Shown here: positions 50,720 through 58,798 of the stretch, one piece after another
Position numbering within the stretch: position 1 is the first letter of the stretch
Layout: the number at the start of each line of letters is the position of its first letter
Source of the DNA: Desulfoluna sp.
GTDB lineage: Bacteria > Desulfobacterota > Desulfobacteria > Desulfobacterales > Desulfolunaceae
Assembly (NCBI RefSeq): GCF_030145185.1
Contig: NZ_JAQYWB010000009.1
Span: forward strand, 1-64,000
Length of the DNA: 64,000 bases
Direction: 5' to 3'
Notes under the pieces: generated by a model
The model's database searches: none
The model's input: the letters and a program-made list of their open reading frames with translations, nothing else
Told to the model about the DNA's origin: nothing
Position numbers and translations under genes: made by a program

Positions 50720-52114
50720 ATGAACAAGAAACAAGTGGAAAAGGGGCTGGTCGATACCCTGTGGGGTGTCTTTTCATCGGTTCGGCTCTCCGTTATCGTG
50801 CTGACACTTCTGGCGGTTACCTCCATCTTCGGGACGGTGATTCCCCAGAATGCAGCGGCGAATCTTTATCTGGAACGGTATGGGGAGGCGGCCTATCGCG
50901 TGCTTCACTTCCTTGATATATTCGATATGTATCACTCCTGGTGGTTTCAGTTTCTGATCTTGCTTCTGGGGATTAACCTGGTGATCTGTTCCATGGATCG
51001 GCTTCCCAGTGCCTTGAAGATTGTCGGACGAACGCAGCGCCTCAATCCCGAGAATTACCGGCGTGCCTTGAAAGGTGAGACCCTGAAGATGGAGGGCTCC
51101 CCGGCCGAGGTTGCCGAGGGCCTTTCCCTGCGGTTGAAAGCCCCCATGGCGACCTTTACCCTTGTTGAAGAGGGGGAGGGGCAGCTTCTTTTTGCCGAGA
51201 AAGGTCGGTGGACGCGGCTGGGGGTTTATGTGGTGCATGGTGCGGTGCTTCTGCTGCTTGCCGGGGGGCTGATCGGTTCCCTGTTTGGGTATGAAGGCTA
51301 CATGAACATCACGGAAGGTCAGAGTGATCAGACCGTGATCCTTAACAACTCCAATGCCACCGTTCCCCTTGGTTTTCAGATTCGTTGCGATGATTTTGCC
51401 GTCTCGTTTTACGACACAGGGGCTCCGAAAGAATATCGGTCTGACCTGGTGGTGGTGGACGAGGGGGGGGAGGTTCTCTCCAAGCGGATCGTGGTAAACG
51501 ATCCCCTTCGTTATAAGGGGATCAGCTTCTATCAGTCGAATTACGGCACGGTGCCGCCGGAGTCGGCGTCCTTTGTCTTTACCAGTAAGGCAAGCGGGAT
51601 GTCTTATCCGGTTGACGGGAATTTCGGCAAGCCCATCCCTATCCCCGAGGGGCTCGGGACCTTTACGCCGCTGCACTTTATTAACAACTATAAGTTTCGT
51701 GGTCATGCTGTGGGGGCCACGGTGTTGGGTGTGTTAAAGAAAAAGGGGGGGGAGGAGGTTCGCCTGGCCCTGCCCATCAAGTCCCCCAAGTTTGATCGCA
51801 TGCGCCGAGGGGAGGTCACCGTCACCGTTGGGGAGTTTGAAAACCGCTATTACACCGGCCTGCAGGTGACCAAAGATCCGGGAGTGTGGTTTGTTTATAC
51901 CGGGTTCATCTTTCTCATCGTCGGGTGTTACATTACCTTTTTCATGAGCCATCAGGGCTTTATGGTGGAGGTGACGCCCGATACCTCGGGATCCGCCGTC
52001 ACCCTTTACGGCAGCGTCAACAAAAACAGGCTGGGGATGGAGATGGTGATTCGCCGTCTGACCGAAAAACTTGAAAGAGAGACACGAATCCCAGAAAGGC
52101 AGGTGGTGAAATGA
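50720..52114 (+). CDS. resB: cytochrome c biogenesis protein ResB (system II)
   Basis: A protein of 464 residues with four membrane helices: VRLSVIVLTLLAVTSIFGTVIP, WWFQFLILLLGINLVICSMDRL, VYVVHGAVLLLLAGGLIGSLFG and VWFVYTGFIFLIVGCYITFF (parts). A periplasmic beta domain includes RYKGISFYQSNYG. ResB/Ccs1 with CcsA/CcsB delivers and ligates heme to CxxCH motifs outside the membrane. The ATG at 50720 follows AAAGGG. It overlaps ccsB by four bases (ATGA), so the pair is translationally coupled. It fits the multiheme cytochrome gene qrcA downstream. Confidence 0.95.
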   Translation: MNKKQVEKGLVDTLWGVFSSVRLSVIVLTLLAVTSIFGTVIPQNAAANLYLERYGEAAYRVLHFLDIFDMYHSWWFQFLILLLGINLVICSMDRLPSALKIVGRTQRLNPENYRRALKGETLKMEGSPAEVAEGLSLRLKAPMATFTLVEEGEGQLLFAEKGRWTRLGVYVVHGAVLLLLAGGLIGSLFGYEGYMNITEGQSDQTVILNNSNATVPLGFQIRCDDFAVSFYDTGAPKEYRSDLVVVDEGGEVLSKRIVVNDPLRYKGISFYQSNYGTVPPESASFVFTSKASGMSYPVDGNFGKPIPIPEGLGTFTPLHFINNYKFRGHAVGATVLGVLKKKGGEEVRLALPIKSPKFDRMRRGEVTVTVGEFENRYYTGLQVTKDPGVWFVYTGFIFLIVGCYITFFMSHQGFMVEVTPDTSGSAVTLYGSVNKNRLGMEMVIRRLTEKLERETRIPERQVVK

Positions 52115-52953
52115 TCAACAGTTCCCTGGTACTTTCCATCGTTACCTTTGTCTACGGTTTTTCCGCCGTTCTATACATCTCCGCGTGGATTTTTGCCCGG
52201 AAGACGCCGGCGCAGGTCGCTCGATACTCCGCCATCGCCGGGGTGATTGGCAACCTGTTCGGATTTGTGTTGCGATGGGTGGAGTCCTATGGTCATGGCT
52301 ACGGTCATATCCCTCTCTCCAACCTTTACGAGTCCCTGGTTTTCTTTGCCCTGACCATTGCCTTGATTTCCATCGCCATCGGCCTGCGTTACCGCAACGA
52401 CATGATCAGCACCTTTGCCATGCCTCTGGCCTTTATCGCCCTGGCCTACGCCTCCCTCTCGCCGTCGGTAAGTGACAAGATTCAGCCCCTGATTCCGGCC
52501 TTGAAAAGCAACTGGCTCACCACCCATGTGGTCACCTGTTTTCTCGGGTACGCCGGGTTTGCCACAGCCTTTGGCATTGGGGTTATGTATCTGGTCCGGG
52601 AGTGTCTGCCGGGCAGGAAGGGCGGGTTGATTTCCAGGCTTCCCGAGGGGTACGTCCTGGATGAGTTGATCCAGAAGACCGTGATGTTCGGCTTTCTTTT
52701 TCTGACCGTGGGGATTATTACCGGAGCGGTCTGGGCCAACTCGGCCTGGGGGACCTATTGGAGTTGGGATCCCAAGGAGACCTGGTCCCTGATCACCTGG
52801 TTTGTTTACGCCATCATGCTTCATCTGCGTTACATGCGGGGCTGGGGTGGTGCCAAAATTGCCGTGATTTCGATCATCGGCTTTATGGCGGTGATGTTTA
52901 CCTACTTTGGTGTGAACTACCTGCCTGGCCTGCACAGCTATGGCAGTATGTAG
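52111..52953 (+). CDS. ccsB: cytochrome c biogenesis protein CcsB/CcsA (system II)
   Basis: A protein of 280 residues with about eight membrane helices. The WWD heme-handling motif WGTYWSWDPKETWSLITW is present, flanked by conserved histidines (SNWLTTHVVTCFLGYAGF; YAIMLHLRYMRGW). Together with ResB it forms the system II cytochrome c synthetase. The start overlaps the resB stop. A terminator at 52980 ends the operon before the non-coding region preceding qrcA. Confidence 0.95.
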   Translation: MINSSLVLSIVTFVYGFSAVLYISAWIFARKTPAQVARYSAIAGVIGNLFGFVLRWVESYGHGYGHIPLSNLYESLVFFALTIALISIAIGLRYRNDMISTFAMPLAFIALAYASLSPSVSDKIQPLIPALKSNWLTTHVVTCFLGYAGFATAFGIGVMYLVRECLPGRKGGLISRLPEGYVLDELIQKTVMFGFLFLTVGIITGAVWANSAWGTYWSWDPKETWSLITWFVYAIMLHLRYMRGWGGAKIAVISIIGFMAVMFTYFGVNYLPGLHSYGSM

Positions 52954-52979
52954 CCGCTGATTAAGCTGCATGGATTTCA

Positions 52980-53016
52980 AGTCGCTTTTCCCGCACAGGG
53001 GGGAGCGGCTTTTTTT
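52980..53016 (+). terminator. rho-independent terminator after ccsB
   Basis: AGTCGCTTTTCCC pairs with GGGGGGAGCGGCT (one G-U pair in the outer stem), followed by six T. Confidence 0.75.
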
Positions 53017-53105: not shown

Positions 53106-53133
53106 TTGACACAGGTGGCGGCGTTACTATAGA
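53106..53133 (+). promoter_or_regulatory. sigma-70-type promoter of the 53.1-53.6 kb transcript
   Basis: TTGACA, 16 bases, TATAGA. It reads toward qrcA but a terminator lies at 53603 before that gene. Confidence 0.6.
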
Positions 53134-53139
53134 AATAGT

Positions 53140-53639
53140 GCTAGCAATATTTTGTGCTTGAAAATCTTATATGTGCTCAATGCAAGTAAATAAGGGGGGA
53201 GCTCTCAGGCCGTGGCGGGAAAAAACAGGGCACCACACAAACCGGAGACCTGATCTCAAATCTTCATGGCAACCCAAGAGTTGGGTGTGTCGCTGGAATA
53301 TTTTTCGGCGCCTCAAAGGTTACCTTTTGGGGTGACGGTCCTGCTTGAATCTGTGCCTGTTGCAGATACTTAAATGGTTTATTCATCGTTTCGGGACAGG
53401 AATATGGGGCGTCAGGTACCATTGTCATGCCTTGAAAAAATGTGCGCGAGCACGTATAGGATACGTGTCAAAATGCTCGAAGACCGGCGAATGGGGTTTG
53501 TCGGTTTGACGATATATGTGGTGAATTCGTTTGATACCGTTGAGAGGCAGAGTGCCTCGACAGGCGTGCGGAGTCATCACCCACAGGTTCGGAAAAGCCG
53601 TTAGCTCCTGGTATGTAATCAGGGGGCCAGGGGCTTTTT
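53140..53639 (+). ncRNA. candidate structured non-coding RNA upstream of qrcA
   Basis: About 500 bases between a promoter (53106) and a rho-independent terminator (53603-53639) without a credible gene. Visible stems: ACCCAA-gag-TTGGGT (53272-53286) inside ACAC/GTGT; AAAGGT-t-ACCTTT (53315-53327); ATCTG/CAGAT (53349-53367); CGAGCA/TGCTCG enclosing CGTAT/ATACG (53447-53479); ACCG/CGGT (53483-53505); GAGGC/GCCTC (53544-53558). I could not match it to tmRNA, RNase P, SRP, 6S or common riboswitch consensus by eye. The 5' end is set from the promoter. Confidence 0.45.
53603..53639 (+). terminator. rho-independent terminator before qrcA
   Basis: AGCTCCTGG (53603-53611) pairs with CCAGGGGCT (53627-53635) over nine positions (one G-U), followed by TTTTT. 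Confidence 0.7.
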
Positions 53640-53744
53640 GTATGTCCGTGCTTCTGTTTTTGTATCATTAGATTGGCGCGGTGTATGCCCGAATCACCCG
53701 GTGGTCGGGTATCTGGTGTTCAACAATTAACACGTGGAGTTTTC

Positions 53745-54401
53745 ATGAGCTTACCTGGTGAAAAACAGACTGGTCGTGAGCAAACGGGGTCATCCGGTGA
53801 TCCGACAAACAAAGGGGAGTCGGGACTGGTGGCTCTCTTTTTTATCGTGGGTCTGGCCGCAAGTCTTGCCATAGGATGGATTGTCTTCCCCAAGCTTCTC
53901 TACTCCAAGAGCGAGCAGCCCTTTGATTTCAGCCATGTCACCCACGCCGATGCGGTGGGCGACTGCGAAAGCTGTCATTTTTTCCGTGAGGATGGCACCT
54001 ATGCCGGTGTCCCTACCCTTGCACAGTGCACCGAGTGTCATGAAGAGGTGCAGGGCGAGAGTGAAGCCGAGGAGACCTTCGTCAATGAGTATGTGGCCGA
54101 AGAAAAAGAGGTGCCCTGGAAAATCTATTCCCGGCAGCCTGACTGTGTCTTCTTTTCCCATGCGGCCCATGTGACCGGAGCTGGGATGGACTGTGCCGAG
54201 TGTCATGGCGACATCGGTGAATCCGAGAGCCTGAAGCCCTACGAAGAGAACAGACTGACCGGCTACAGCCGGGATATCTGGGGCAAGAACATCGCAGGCA
54301 TGAAGAAGAACAGCTGGGATCGTATGAAGATGGAGGATTGTGGCGCTTGCCATAAGGAGACCATGGGCAGCAAAGGTGCCTGTTTCCAGTGCCATAAGTA
54401 G
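53745..54401 (+). CDS. qrcA: QrcA, multiheme cytochrome c subunit of Qrc
   Basis: A protein of 218 residues. One N-terminal membrane helix (LVALFFIVGLAASLAIGWIVF) anchors a periplasmic domain with five CxxCH heme motifs (CESCH, CTECH, CAECH, CGACH, CFQCH). Distal-ligand-like histidines lie in FDFSHVTH and FFSHAAHVT. It would receive electrons from type I cytochrome c3. The ATG at 53745 follows TGGAG; earlier in-frame codons are within the intergenic region. Desulfovibrio vulgaris QrcA is described as a hexaheme protein, so one motif may be missing or unusual here. It is first of four qrc genes. Confidence 0.92.
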   Translation: MSLPGEKQTGREQTGSSGDPTNKGESGLVALFFIVGLAASLAIGWIVFPKLLYSKSEQPFDFSHVTHADAVGDCESCHFFREDGTYAGVPTLAQCTECHEEVQGESEAEETFVNEYVAEEKEVPWKIYSRQPDCVFFSHAAHVTGAGMDCAECHGDIGESESLKPYEENRLTGYSRDIWGKNIAGMKKNSWDRMKMEDCGACHKETMGSKGACFQCHK

Positions 54402-54458: not shown

Positions 54459-56561
54459 ATGAAGATCAACAGGAGACATTTTCTCGCTTTGGGAATGGGA
54501 GCCACAGCCGGTACCCTGCTCTCTCCTCTTCCCTGGAAGTTGACGGACGATGCGTCTATCTGGACCCAGAACTGGGCCTGGACGCCGGTCCCTGAAACCG
54601 GAGAGTATCTGTACACCGGGGGTGCCTGTACCCTCTGTCCCGGCGGCTGCAATCTTGCGGTCCGCAAAGTGGGCGAGCGCGTGGTGAAAATTGAAGGGCA
54701 GGCAGACAGCCCCGTCAACACCGGCGATCTCTGCGGGGTGGGCCTCTCGGCCGCTCAGCTCCTCTATGGACCTTCCCGTATAGAAGGCCCCATGGCCCGC
54801 GAGGGCAAACGGGGAGAGGGCAAGTGGAAACGCCTCACCTGGGAGGAGGCGGAAGCCCAGCTGGCAAAGAAACTCAACAGCCTCTCAGATGGCAAGGGCG
54901 TTGCCGCCCTGTCGGCCTTCCGGAGCGGGAGTGTTTCGGCTCTGATTCAGCGCCTTCTGGACACCCTCGGGTCCGATCGTTTTTTGACCCTGCCCTCCCT
55001 CCATGACAGCCTGGAACAGGCCATGGCCCTGACCATGGGCCGCGCGCCCGGTGAGGGCGTCGGGTTTGACACGGAAAATACCGATCTGATTTTAAGCCTC
55101 GGCAGCTCCGTCGCCGAAGGGTGGGGATCTCCCGTGCGCATGGTGAAAGCCGCCGGTGCGAAAAAAATGATTCAGGTGGAACCCTATCTCTCCACCACCG
55201 CCTCCATGGCCGATATGTGGGTGCCCGCCAAACCCGGTACCGAAGGGGTTTTTGCCTTGTCCGTCGCCGCGGCCATGGTCCAGGAAAAACTCTACGATCA
55301 TATTTTCGTTTCCACCGCCACGGAAGGTTTTCCTGCCTTCAGCGCCTGGCTTCTGGAAAATTATACCCCGAAAAAAGCCGAAGCCGTGACCGGGGTTCCC
55401 CCAGCCATGGTGAAAAAAGTGGCCGTGGCCTTTGCCGGCGCACGTCGCCCCGTGGCTCTGTGTGGCCGAGGGAAAGGGGAAACTCCCGTGAGCCTTGCCG
55501 AAGCCCTGGCGGTGTTTGCCTTAAACGCCCTTAAAGGCTCCGTCCAGCGCGACGGCGGCCTGGTTAAGGTGGGCGCGCTGCCCTATGCGGTGGCGGTTGC
55601 CGAATCCGAGGCCATGGGGGAAAAGCTGGCCACCCTCACCGAAAAGGGGAAAACCGAGCTGCTTCTGGATTGGGGCACCAACCCCTTCTACACGCTGGCT
55701 ACCTCGAAAAAGGCGGCAGAAGCCCTGGCCTCCATCGGGACCATCGTGAGCTTCTCCCCTTATATGGACGAGACGGCCGCCATGGCCGACCTGATCCTGC
55801 CCGATCACACCCATCTGGAAAAAATGCAGGATGTGCCTGTACGCGCCGGTCTTGAGCGGTCTACGGTGACTCTGACCCAGGCGGCCATTGCGCCGGTGAT
55901 GGACACGAAGCATACCGGTGAGGTGCTGATCAGCGTGGGGGCTCAGCTGGACGGAGGTCGTGACGCCTTTTCCTGGGACGACTACGAAAGCTACCTCGAA
56001 GAGAGCTGTGGCGAGATGTGGGAGTCTCTATCGGAAAATGGCCTCTGGCAGGGTGATATCGCCTGGAAGAAGGGGCTTGAACGCATCCTGGGAACCTCCC
56101 AGCGTTTTACCTTTGTCATTCCTGAAGGGCCGGTGGCCCTGCCCGCCGAAGGGTCGGCATCCAGCCATCCCTTGACGCTGGTTCCGAGCTGGTCCCTTCG
56201 TATCTCCAGTGGTGCGGTTGCCGATGCGCCGTTTACCATGAAGACCATCGAAGATCGGGTGTTGACAGAAGGGGTCTCCCACGTGGAGTTGCATCCGTCC
56301 ACCGCTCGAAAGGCAGGCCTTGCGCAGGGCGACACCGCCACCCTGGCCACGCCCTTCGGGAGCGCCAAGGTCCGGGTGACCCTTTTTGAAGGGGTGATGC
56401 CCGGTGTGGTGGCTCTGGCCGCAGGCTTGGGACATACCGCCTTTGACGGATTTATCGGCGGCAAGGGGACAAGCTACACGGCCCTTTCCGGCACCATGGT
56501 CGATTCGGCCACGGGTTTTAATTGCACCTGGGGTGCCCGAGCTTCCCTGGCGAAGGGATAG
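54459..56561 (+). CDS. qrcB: QrcB, molybdopterin-oxidoreductase-like subunit of Qrc
   Basis: A protein of 700 residues of the DMSO reductase/CISM family. A twin-arginine signal (MKINRRHFLALGMGA) directs folded export. The N-terminal Fe-S motif is CTLCPGGCNLAV with a fourth Cys in GDLCGVG. The middle and C-terminal domains carry the fold (WEEAEAQLAKKLNSL, SFSPYMDETAAMADLILPDHTHLE). In D. vulgaris Qrc this subunit lacks molybdenum and serves a structural and electron-path role, so the cofactor pocket may be empty. It starts 58 bp after qrcA. It probably faces the periplasm. Confidence 0.95.
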   Translation: MKINRRHFLALGMGATAGTLLSPLPWKLTDDASIWTQNWAWTPVPETGEYLYTGGACTLCPGGCNLAVRKVGERVVKIEGQADSPVNTGDLCGVGLSAAQLLYGPSRIEGPMAREGKRGEGKWKRLTWEEAEAQLAKKLNSLSDGKGVAALSAFRSGSVSALIQRLLDTLGSDRFLTLPSLHDSLEQAMALTMGRAPGEGVGFDTENTDLILSLGSSVAEGWGSPVRMVKAAGAKKMIQVEPYLSTTASMADMWVPAKPGTEGVFALSVAAAMVQEKLYDHIFVSTATEGFPAFSAWLLENYTPKKAEAVTGVPPAMVKKVAVAFAGARRPVALCGRGKGETPVSLAEALAVFALNALKGSVQRDGGLVKVGALPYAVAVAESEAMGEKLATLTEKGKTELLLDWGTNPFYTLATSKKAAEALASIGTIVSFSPYMDETAAMADLILPDHTHLEKMQDVPVRAGLERSTVTLTQAAIAPVMDTKHTGEVLISVGAQLDGGRDAFSWDDYESYLEESCGEMWESLSENGLWQGDIAWKKGLERILGTSQRFTFVIPEGPVALPAEGSASSHPLTLVPSWSLRISSGAVADAPFTMKTIEDRVLTEGVSHVELHPSTARKAGLAQGDTATLATPFGSAKVRVTLFEGVMPGVVALAAGLGHTAFDGFIGGKGTSYTALSGTMVDSATGFNCTWGARASLAKG

Positions 56562-56621: not shown

Positions 56622-57443
56622 ATGAATACGGAATCAAATGAAACGAGGGCGAAGAAATTCGGCATGGTCATCGACCTCGACAAGTGCACCGGATGCGGGT
56701 CCTGCATGGTGGCTTGTTCGGCCGAGAACAACATCCCCGTCCGGAAAGATGAAAGCGATAAGCTTTTAAGCATCACCTGGATACGGGTCTATCGCATCAC
56801 CAACGGCAAAGATTTTCCCGACACCGAGATCTGTTATTTCCCCCGCCCTTGCCAGCATTGCGGGGGCAAGCACGACGACGGTCATTCTCCCTGCGTGTCG
56901 GTCTGCCCGGCCACGGCCACGGATTACGACCACTCCACCGGCATCGTGAGCCAGATCTATACCCGCTGCTTCGGCTGTCGATACTGCATGGCGGCCTGCC
57001 CGTATCACGCACGTTATTTCAACTGGTGGGATCCTGTCTGGCCTGCCAAGCTGGAAGAATCTCTCTCTCCGGATGTCTCTCCGCGTATGCGCGGTGTGGT
57101 GGAAAAGTGCAGCTTCTGCTTCCACCGTTACCAGCTGGCACGCGATAAGGCTTACCAGGAAGAGCGGGACGTGGAGGAGATGGAGTACCAGACCGCCTGC
57201 ACCCAGGCGTGTCCCTCGGGTGCCATCACCTTCGGGGATTTGAACAACCCCGATCACGCCGTCTACACCCTGAAGAAGGACAAGCGTGCTTTTCGCTTAC
57301 TGGAACGCCTGCACACCAACCCGAAGGTGTACTATCTCTCTGAGCGAGAGTGGGTGAGGCGGGCCGGTGACAACTACCTGAGCAACGAAGAACCCACCGG
57401 AGCACCGGGGGCTTATGAACTCAAGGGCAAGGGCGGGCATTAA
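56622..57443 (+). CDS. qrcC: QrcC, iron-sulfur subunit of Qrc
   Basis: A periplasmic protein of 273 residues of the PsrB/DmsB type, with four cysteine motifs: CTGCGSCMVACS (about 22-33), CQHCGG with CVSVCP (about 77-100), CFGCRYCMAACP (about 120), and CSFC with CTQACP (about 163-195). These bind up to four Fe-S clusters, relaying electrons from QrcA/B to the membrane subunit. It has no signal peptide and is presumably co-exported with QrcB through Tat. It starts about 60 bp after qrcB. Confidence 0.95.
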   Translation: MNTESNETRAKKFGMVIDLDKCTGCGSCMVACSAENNIPVRKDESDKLLSITWIRVYRITNGKDFPDTEICYFPRPCQHCGGKHDDGHSPCVSVCPATATDYDHSTGIVSQIYTRCFGCRYCMAACPYHARYFNWWDPVWPAKLEESLSPDVSPRMRGVVEKCSFCFHRYQLARDKAYQEERDVEEMEYQTACTQACPSGAITFGDLNNPDHAVYTLKKDKRAFRLLERLHTNPKVYYLSEREWVRRAGDNYLSNEEPTGAPGAYELKGKGGH

Positions 57444-57550: not shown

Positions 57551-58798
57551 ATGGACTCTGCTTTGATACCCGAAGGTGTTGAGCGTTGCTCTCTCAAGCG
57601 GTTTACCCTTGGTCTGGTCATTCCGGCGGCGTTGGTGATCTGGGGGCTTTATGCCGCCTATCTCTGCTGGTTCAAGGGCCTCAACCAAACCAATATGAAC
57701 GATTCGTACGGCTTTGCCCTCTGGATCTGGGCTGACCTTGCGGTCATCGCCGTGGGCGGCGGGGCTTTCTTTACCGGCTTTCTTCGCTATGTGGTGGGGA
57801 AAGACGAACTGAAGAATATCATTAACTTTGCCGTCATTGTGGGTTTTTGCTGCTACTGCTCCGCCATGCTGATCCTGGCCATCGACATCGGTCAGCCCCT
57901 GCGCGGGTGGTTTATCTTCTGGCACGCCAACGTTCACTCCATGTTGACGGAGGTGGCCTTTTGTCTCTCTCTCTATCTGTCGGTGCTGGCCATTGAGTAC
58001 TTGCCGCTGCTGCTGGAGAACCGAAAGATCGACCAGAACCCCTTCTGGCACAATATGGGCCACCGCATGCATGAGATCATGGCGGTCTTTGCGGCCACGG
58101 GCGCCTTTCTCTCCTGCTTTCATCAGGGCTCTCTGGGCGGCGTCACCGGCGTGCTTTACGGGCGTCCCTTTGGCCTGAGGGAAGGGATCTTTATCTGGCC
58201 CTGGACCTTTTTTCTCTACACCTGGTCTGCGGCGGCCTGCGGTCCCTGCTTCACCATGTTCTGCTGCAAGATCACCGAAAAGCTCACCGGCAAAAGGCTG
58301 GTGAAGGACAATGTCTACGATCTTCTGGCCAAAATCTCCGGATGGATGCTGGGAACCTATATCGTGGCCAAGATTGCCGACACTCTCTGGTGGGCGGTGG
58401 TCACCGTTCCCAAGACCGGCTTTTCCTTTATGCAGTTCTACAACAACTCCAATAACTACCACGGTCTCTGGATTTTGATCCTTGAGCTTGTTGTTTGCGG
58501 CATCGTGCCCGCAGCCATTCTCCTTAAGAAGGAGTGGCGTCAGAACAGCCGGCTCTTCATGGTTGCTGTGACCTTGGCTGTGTTTGGGGTCTGCCTGAAC
58601 CGCTGGGTGATGGTGATGCAGCCCATGGCCATGCCGGTGATGACCTTCGACCAGTGGGTGCTCTACTTTCCCTCCTGGCAGGAGTGGGCCACGACCATTC
58701 TGCCCGTGGCCGGTGGCATTCTTGTGATTGCCCTCTCTTATCGTTACCTGCCGGTGTTTCCGCAGGAGAGAGAACTCAACCCCGTTGAGAAGTCCTAA
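57551..58798 (+). CDS. qrcD: QrcD, NrfD/PsrC-type membrane subunit of Qrc
   Basis: A protein of 415 residues with about ten membrane helices, for example FTLGLVIPAALVIWGLYAAY, IINFAVIVGFCCYCSAMLIL and FLYTWSAAACGPCFTMFCC. It is the quinone-binding integral subunit where menaquinone is reduced. WFIFWHANVHSMLTEVAF, with its conserved His, and LNRWVMVMQPMAMPV fit the NrfD family. It starts about 108 bp after qrcC. A 54-residue reading frame with an own ribosome site follows within 60 bases, before the terminator. Confidence 0.95.
   Translation: MDSALIPEGVERCSLKRFTLGLVIPAALVIWGLYAAYLCWFKGLNQTNMNDSYGFALWIWADLAVIAVGGGAFFTGFLRYVVGKDELKNIINFAVIVGFCCYCSAMLILAIDIGQPLRGWFIFWHANVHSMLTEVAFCLSLYLSVLAIEYLPLLLENRKIDQNPFWHNMGHRMHEIMAVFAATGAFLSCFHQGSLGGVTGVLYGRPFGLREGIFIWPWTFFLYTWSAAACGPCFTMFCCKITEKLTGKRLVKDNVYDLLAKISGWMLGTYIVAKIADTLWWAVVTVPKTGFSFMQFYNNSNNYHGLWILILELVVCGIVPAAILLKKEWRQNSRLFMVAVTLAVFGVCLNRWVMVMQPMAMPVMTFDQWVLYFPSWQEWATTILPVAGGILVIALSYRYLPVFPQERELNPVEKS

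Follow-up and report, generated by a model that had tools for sequence, protein, structure and literature searches.

Between ccsB (52111-52953) and qrcA (53745-54401), on the + strand of the window analysed here (the whole 64,000-nt stretch of Desulfoluna DNA), lies a structured region best read, with a probability of about 0.55, as a genus-specific small RNA module within the qrcABCD operon leader; the module's terminator would also attenuate qrc transcription from an upstream promoter. Qrc is an energy-conserving enzyme of the sulfate-breathing genus Desulfoluna (background, for alaskensis G20, in PMC6303296). The anatomy of the module, an internal promoter (P2) followed by three hairpins (H1, H2 and H3), is well supported by comparison of related genomes; transcription from P2 and from the upstream promoter (P1), termination at H3 and a regulatory role are what we infer from sequence. 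The features of the locus are:

52111-52953, + strand: ccsB, the upstream neighbour (NCBIfam CcsB, 266 bits)
52979-53011, + strand: ccsB terminator (terminator call)
53106-53133, + strand: P1, putative sigma-70-type promoter, predicted start near 53140 (conservation in six Desulfoluna, similar promoters in relatives)
53140-53431, + strand: P1-P2 spacer, non-coding (46% mean identity, MFE z near 0, column-shuffle z -0.5)
53432-53460, + strand: P2, putative internal promoter TTGAAA-17-TATAGG, predicted start near 53466 (conservation)
53466-53639, + strand: predicted RNA of about 175 nt (MFE z, alifold against shuffles, covariance model R1)
53481-53507, + strand: H1, hairpin AGACCGGC / GTCGGTTT with a G-rich apical loop (compensation in G001)
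53518-53580, + strand: H2, a single long hairpin predicted in each of five species, absent in G003
53581-53591, + strand: unpaired linker, consensus CACAGGTTCGG, nearly invariant in five of six species
53592-53639, + strand: H3, intrinsic-terminator hairpin with fixed mismatches, then T5GTATG (conservation, folding)
53640-53744, + strand: remaining qrcA leader, with hairpin-prone CCCGGTGGTCGGG and GTGTTCAACAATTAACAC before the ribosome-binding site
53745-54401, + strand: qrcA, first gene of qrcABCD, ATG at 53745 (NCBIfam QrcA equivalog, above cut-off)
54459-56561, + strand: qrcB (NCBIfam QrcB equivalog, above cut-off)
56622-57443, + strand: qrcC (NCBIfam QrcC equivalog, above cut-off)
57551-58798, + strand: putative qrcD, an ORF in the expected place, its identity taken from position

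The window genome (G000) was compared with five congeners (G001-G005), making six Desulfoluna genomes, and with sister genera represented by G006 and G007. QrcA identity is 89-93%. When the interval upstream of qrcA is aligned across the six it falls into three zones: the first is P1, GGATCTTTTTATTGACA-N-CGTTACTATA, with an invariant core; the second is the spacer; and the third opens with P2, CTTGAAAAA...CGTATAAG, and runs for about 175 bases to end in a terminator. In G003 (MAG.254, locus L016) a gene other than ccsB precedes the qrc leader, in contrast to the four other congeners. The module remains before qrcA there although its upstream neighbour differs.

The CTTGAAAAA of P2 is invariant in all six genomes and the 17-base spacer between its boxes is constant. 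Its -10 box is TATAGG in G000, TATAAG in four congeners and TATGAA in the most divergent, G003, so that TTGAAA-17-TATARG is kept in five of six. A simple promoter scan reported neither P1 nor P2, since it demands T at the last -10 position, and the evidence for both is conservation. From the predicted P2 start to the end of H3 the RNA would be 166-177 nt in five species and 97 nt in G003, which has P1, P2, H1 and H3 and lacks H2.

Zone 3 folds better than expected in most of the species (MFE z of -2.95, -0.85 in G005, -3.05, -3.67, -3.55 and -3.85). In the five-species alignment its consensus fold reaches -46.0 kcal/mol (alifold), where column shuffles give -24.0 +/- 3.4 (z -6.4; none of 200 as good). 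With column shuffles the positive control, the region of the ccsB terminator, reached z -10.4, and the spacer served as internal negative control. Shuffles scored by pair count are suggestive, not decisive (17-177 of 500 reach the observed values, from five sequences only), and covariation is modest because just six closely related sequences are available. H1, H2 and H3 each fold independently. In H1 a G-C pair has become A-U in G001 by compensatory change; G003 carries CATCGGTG/CGCCGATG where the others have H1, and as MAFFT misaligned this part of G003 its H1 was judged by single-sequence folding. H2 keeps its pairing, with compensatory changes, in five species despite large sequence turnover.

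The first-pass annotation had proposed a new structured RNA of about 500 bases, starting at a promoter at 53106 and containing at least six strong stem-loops. That the RNA is structured is borne out; its extent shrinks to about 53466-53639, from the internal P2, a module that the annotation had not picked out. The alignment of homologous regions that had been suggested as a check does reveal compensatory changes, in H1 and H2, with structure kept in this part only. The interval 53135-53640 as a whole folds somewhat better than shuffles on the + strand (z -2.15) and at chance level on the - strand (z -1.03), and the first 290 or so bases are not part of one structured RNA: the spacer has no fold beyond chance in the six species (MFE z -1.1 to +0.8), nor does its consensus fold in the five-species alignment differ from column shuffles. 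Of the hairpins in the interval, H1, H2 and H3 alone are conserved. The nested element singled out earlier, with outer arms CGAGCA (from 53447) and TGCTCG (53479) around an inner CGTAT-AGG-ATACG, is not conserved, and its inner stem lies on the P2 -10 box and start. It extends past the predicted P2 start, so a P2 transcript cannot contain the whole of it, and the congeners have CGTATAAGAAACG at that site without its arms.

A hairpin and T5 do stand where the terminator was proposed earlier: this terminator-like element ends at 53639, with the qrcA ATG 105 bases further on, and H3 with its T5 is found in all six species (-19.5 to -22.2 kcal/mol). Its conservation is unusual. Ordinary terminators drift in sequence, and the region of the ccsB terminator has only 37% identity, whereas H3 is near-invariant, with 25 of 46 columns unchanged in six species, mismatched positions included. 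This near-invariance, mismatches included, suggests that H3 is recognised by a sequence-specific partner, protein or RNA, and is not a terminator only. After H3 the qrcA leader (53688-53735) keeps CCCGGTGGTCGGG and the hairpin GTGTTCAACAATTAACAC ahead of the ribosome-binding site.

P1 (TTGACA at 53106-53111, 16 bases, TATAGA at 53128-53133) is present as the earlier annotation had it, with TTGACA and CGTTACTATA invariant in all six Desulfoluna genomes. It would belong to qrcA, however, and not to the start of a 500-base RNA. TTGACA-N17-TA promoters (pattern calls, not mapped starts) stand 60-405 bp before qrcA in G006, G007 and other families of the order. Since the same promoter type precedes qrcA in sister genera and in other families, P1 is most simply taken as the older promoter, that of the qrcA operon, with the RNA module inserted or evolved downstream of it. 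Between the P1-like promoter and qrcA in these relatives there is mostly no strong terminator comparable to H3. In Desulfoluna the order P1, H3, qrcA, with a terminator between operon promoter and first gene, holds in six of six genomes; in five measured species P1 stands 595-643 bases from qrcA, and H3 intervenes in all. A qrcA promoter of the form GATTTTTCCTTGACA-N17-TA(C/T)A (53106-53133 in the window; loci L023-L047 elsewhere) is recognisable in many families of the order, which suggests that these families share a qrc promoter in which ATTTTTC is conserved as an extension upstream of the -35 box.

The spacer holds short conserved stretches that may be regulatory DNA. GCTAGCA at 53141-53147, just after the P1 start, is kept in five Desulfoluna species and is GTTAGCA in the sixth; it is possibly a regulator site. 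About 90 bases upstream of P2 (53342-53431) are also conserved, with TTGAATCTGTTCCTTCTGCAGATACTTA and GGGACAGG..GAGGCATTG, and the DNA match to G001 starts at 53342. This stretch may be an operator, or else another weak promoter (TTGAAT-16/17-TACTTA).

The module appears confined to one genus. A covariance model of zone 3 (R1) matches the six Desulfoluna genomes with E values of 1e-43 to 1e-52 (6e-8 for G003), and nothing else convincing was found in the order sample (292 genomes in all) or the phylum sample (395, overlapping). Other genomes gave matches of 17-24 bits, which is what a search of so many genomes would be expected to yield. The best of these weak matches (L083) is in an unrelated context. 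A weak match in the window's own genome (L067) seems, by eye, to lie inside a coding sequence. The sister genera G006 and G007, searched more sensitively with R1, gave no match. A pattern scan for H3 across 84,980 species representatives returned five records, all Desulfoluna-type; a scan of viral contigs returned none. No known RNA class had been matched by eye from the sequence alone, and Rfam 15 likewise has no family at gathering score in 53106-53640, and none at E<=5 in the region except weak matches over the ccsB terminator and in ccsB. One such match, to BcKCsr2 (25.4 bits against a gathering score of 40), spans the end of ccsB and its terminator (52912-53016) and is probably a chance terminator match. 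This is probably a new but narrowly distributed, genus-specific regulatory RNA.

How the module might work can be outlined. The arrangement of P2, H1, H2 and H3 between P1 and qrcA is found in Desulfoluna, and the sister genera examined are without it. P2 would give a discrete RNA of about 175 nt ending at H3, while RNA polymerase from P1 (and P2) would read through H3 to express Qrc. Transcription of qrc should pass H3, because no third or conserved promoter is recognised between H3 and qrcA in the six-genome alignment; most of the first half of that stretch is deleted in G002. If qrc transcription does pass it, H3 would in effect be a partial or conditional attenuator as well, with the small RNA accumulating and the fraction of read-through setting the level of Qrc. 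Points against this reading include a short U-tract and folds in which no antiterminator alternative turned up. The earlier suggestion that the RNA may stand alone or control qrc as a leader agrees with this reading, in which it may do both.

Other explanations have to be weighed. The conserved promoter and terminator, and the conserved unpaired linker between H2 and H3, would fit a stand-alone RNA that works purely in trans, whether it pairs with other RNAs or binds protein; its proximity to qrcA would be incidental, and a qrc promoter after H3 would have gone unrecognised. Yet P1 is still conserved, with nothing to transcribe except this RNA and qrc, and no conserved promoter is seen after H3, where G002 has lost part of the sequence. 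Hfq (PF17209) was absent from all eight family genomes scanned, which makes a classical Hfq-dependent RNA unlikely, and with a short U-tract as well (five U, then G) this RNA is not of the Hfq-dependent type. Antisense counterparts of the linker (CCACAGGTTCGGAAAAGCC, up to 3 mismatches, four genomes) are no commoner than those of a reversed-pattern control. A purely trans-acting RNA is unlikely, though not negligible. The genome does encode CsrA; an RNA sequestering it (of the CsrB/RsmY type) was considered and rejected, as the sole G-rich loop, that of H1, is GAATGGGG in G000, with no GGA, and GGA is not conserved. A leader that senses a ligand or protein through H1 and H2 and switches H3 to tune qrc (riboswitch-like, or a protein-dependent attenuator) would suit the position between promoter and operon, the terminator right after conserved hairpins and the unusual conservation of H3. 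However, the three hairpins form independently, and the species share no alternative partner, whether the RNA is folded with the H3 3′ arm or without it. Pairing of the H2 5′ arm with the H3 arms (CCTGG/CCAGG; GGCTGTTT/AAAAAGCC) is, by eye, possible in some species and broken in others. Unlike a typical aptamer, H2 varies in sequence and is missing from G003, and P2 directly before H1 leaves very little leader ahead of H1. Such a sensor is doubtful, somewhat more so than the trans-acting RNA.

Part of the sequence conservation would be explained by promoter and terminator elements alone, that is, by ordinary regulatory DNA in which two promoters and a leaky terminator act without yielding any functional RNA. 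But neither promoters nor a terminator need H1 and H2, which are kept structurally with compensatory change (z -6.4), and this explanation is quite improbable. Still less credible is a small protein or leader peptide, its translation coupled to attenuation, encoded by the only long frame, which ends at a TAG in the H3 5′ arm (53602-53604). Four genomes (G000, G005, G001 and G003) share the frame ending ..SR* at that TAG, but the frame breaks in three of five congeners: though open in G000 and G005, it is interrupted by a stop in G001 and is not in frame with that TAG in G002, while the stop itself is missing from G004. No start is conserved among congeners, and most codon differences change the amino acid and fall at positions 1 and 2. 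The earlier verdict that the interval has no believable gene agrees with this.

With no Hfq, no conserved GGA loops, no conserved antiterminator and no antisense target found, the reading chosen is the small RNA with built-in attenuation of qrc. A bolder version of it has a redox- or energy-responsive protein recognise the sequence-constrained H3 and decide between release of the RNA and read-through into qrcABCD, a new control device for sulfate respiration in one genus; that is a decidedly speculative extension. If transcribed, the module would provide a well-defined RNA, open to experiment, at an operon central to energy metabolism in cultured marine sulfate reducers that respire organohalides, though its restriction to one genus makes it less important in general. 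The sole survey of sulfate-reducer small RNAs found in the literature, on Oleidesulfovibrio alaskensis G20, used known RNA families, and a lineage-specific RNA of this sort would for that reason escape it (PMC11124144).

Among known systems, tmRNA and tRNA were ruled out by ARAGORN. 6S RNA (RF00013) is of similar length; its closing stem is absent here, and the genome's own 6S RNA is elsewhere (C21:111320-111504, 109.7 bits). Intergenic small RNAs with a sigma-70 promoter share with the module their size, promoter, hairpins, terminator with U run and a conserved fold whose stems vary in sequence, whereas the module is nested in an operon leader, is without an Rfam family or Hfq, and has a short U5 tail. 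Leader attenuators, and small RNAs formed from 5′ UTRs by premature termination, are a known general class. The Desulfoluna module differs from leader attenuators in having an extra promoter directly before its structured part and no recognisable antiterminator, aptamer or leader peptide. What it has in common with them is that a terminator separates the operon promoter from the first gene, so that a leader RNA would be released.
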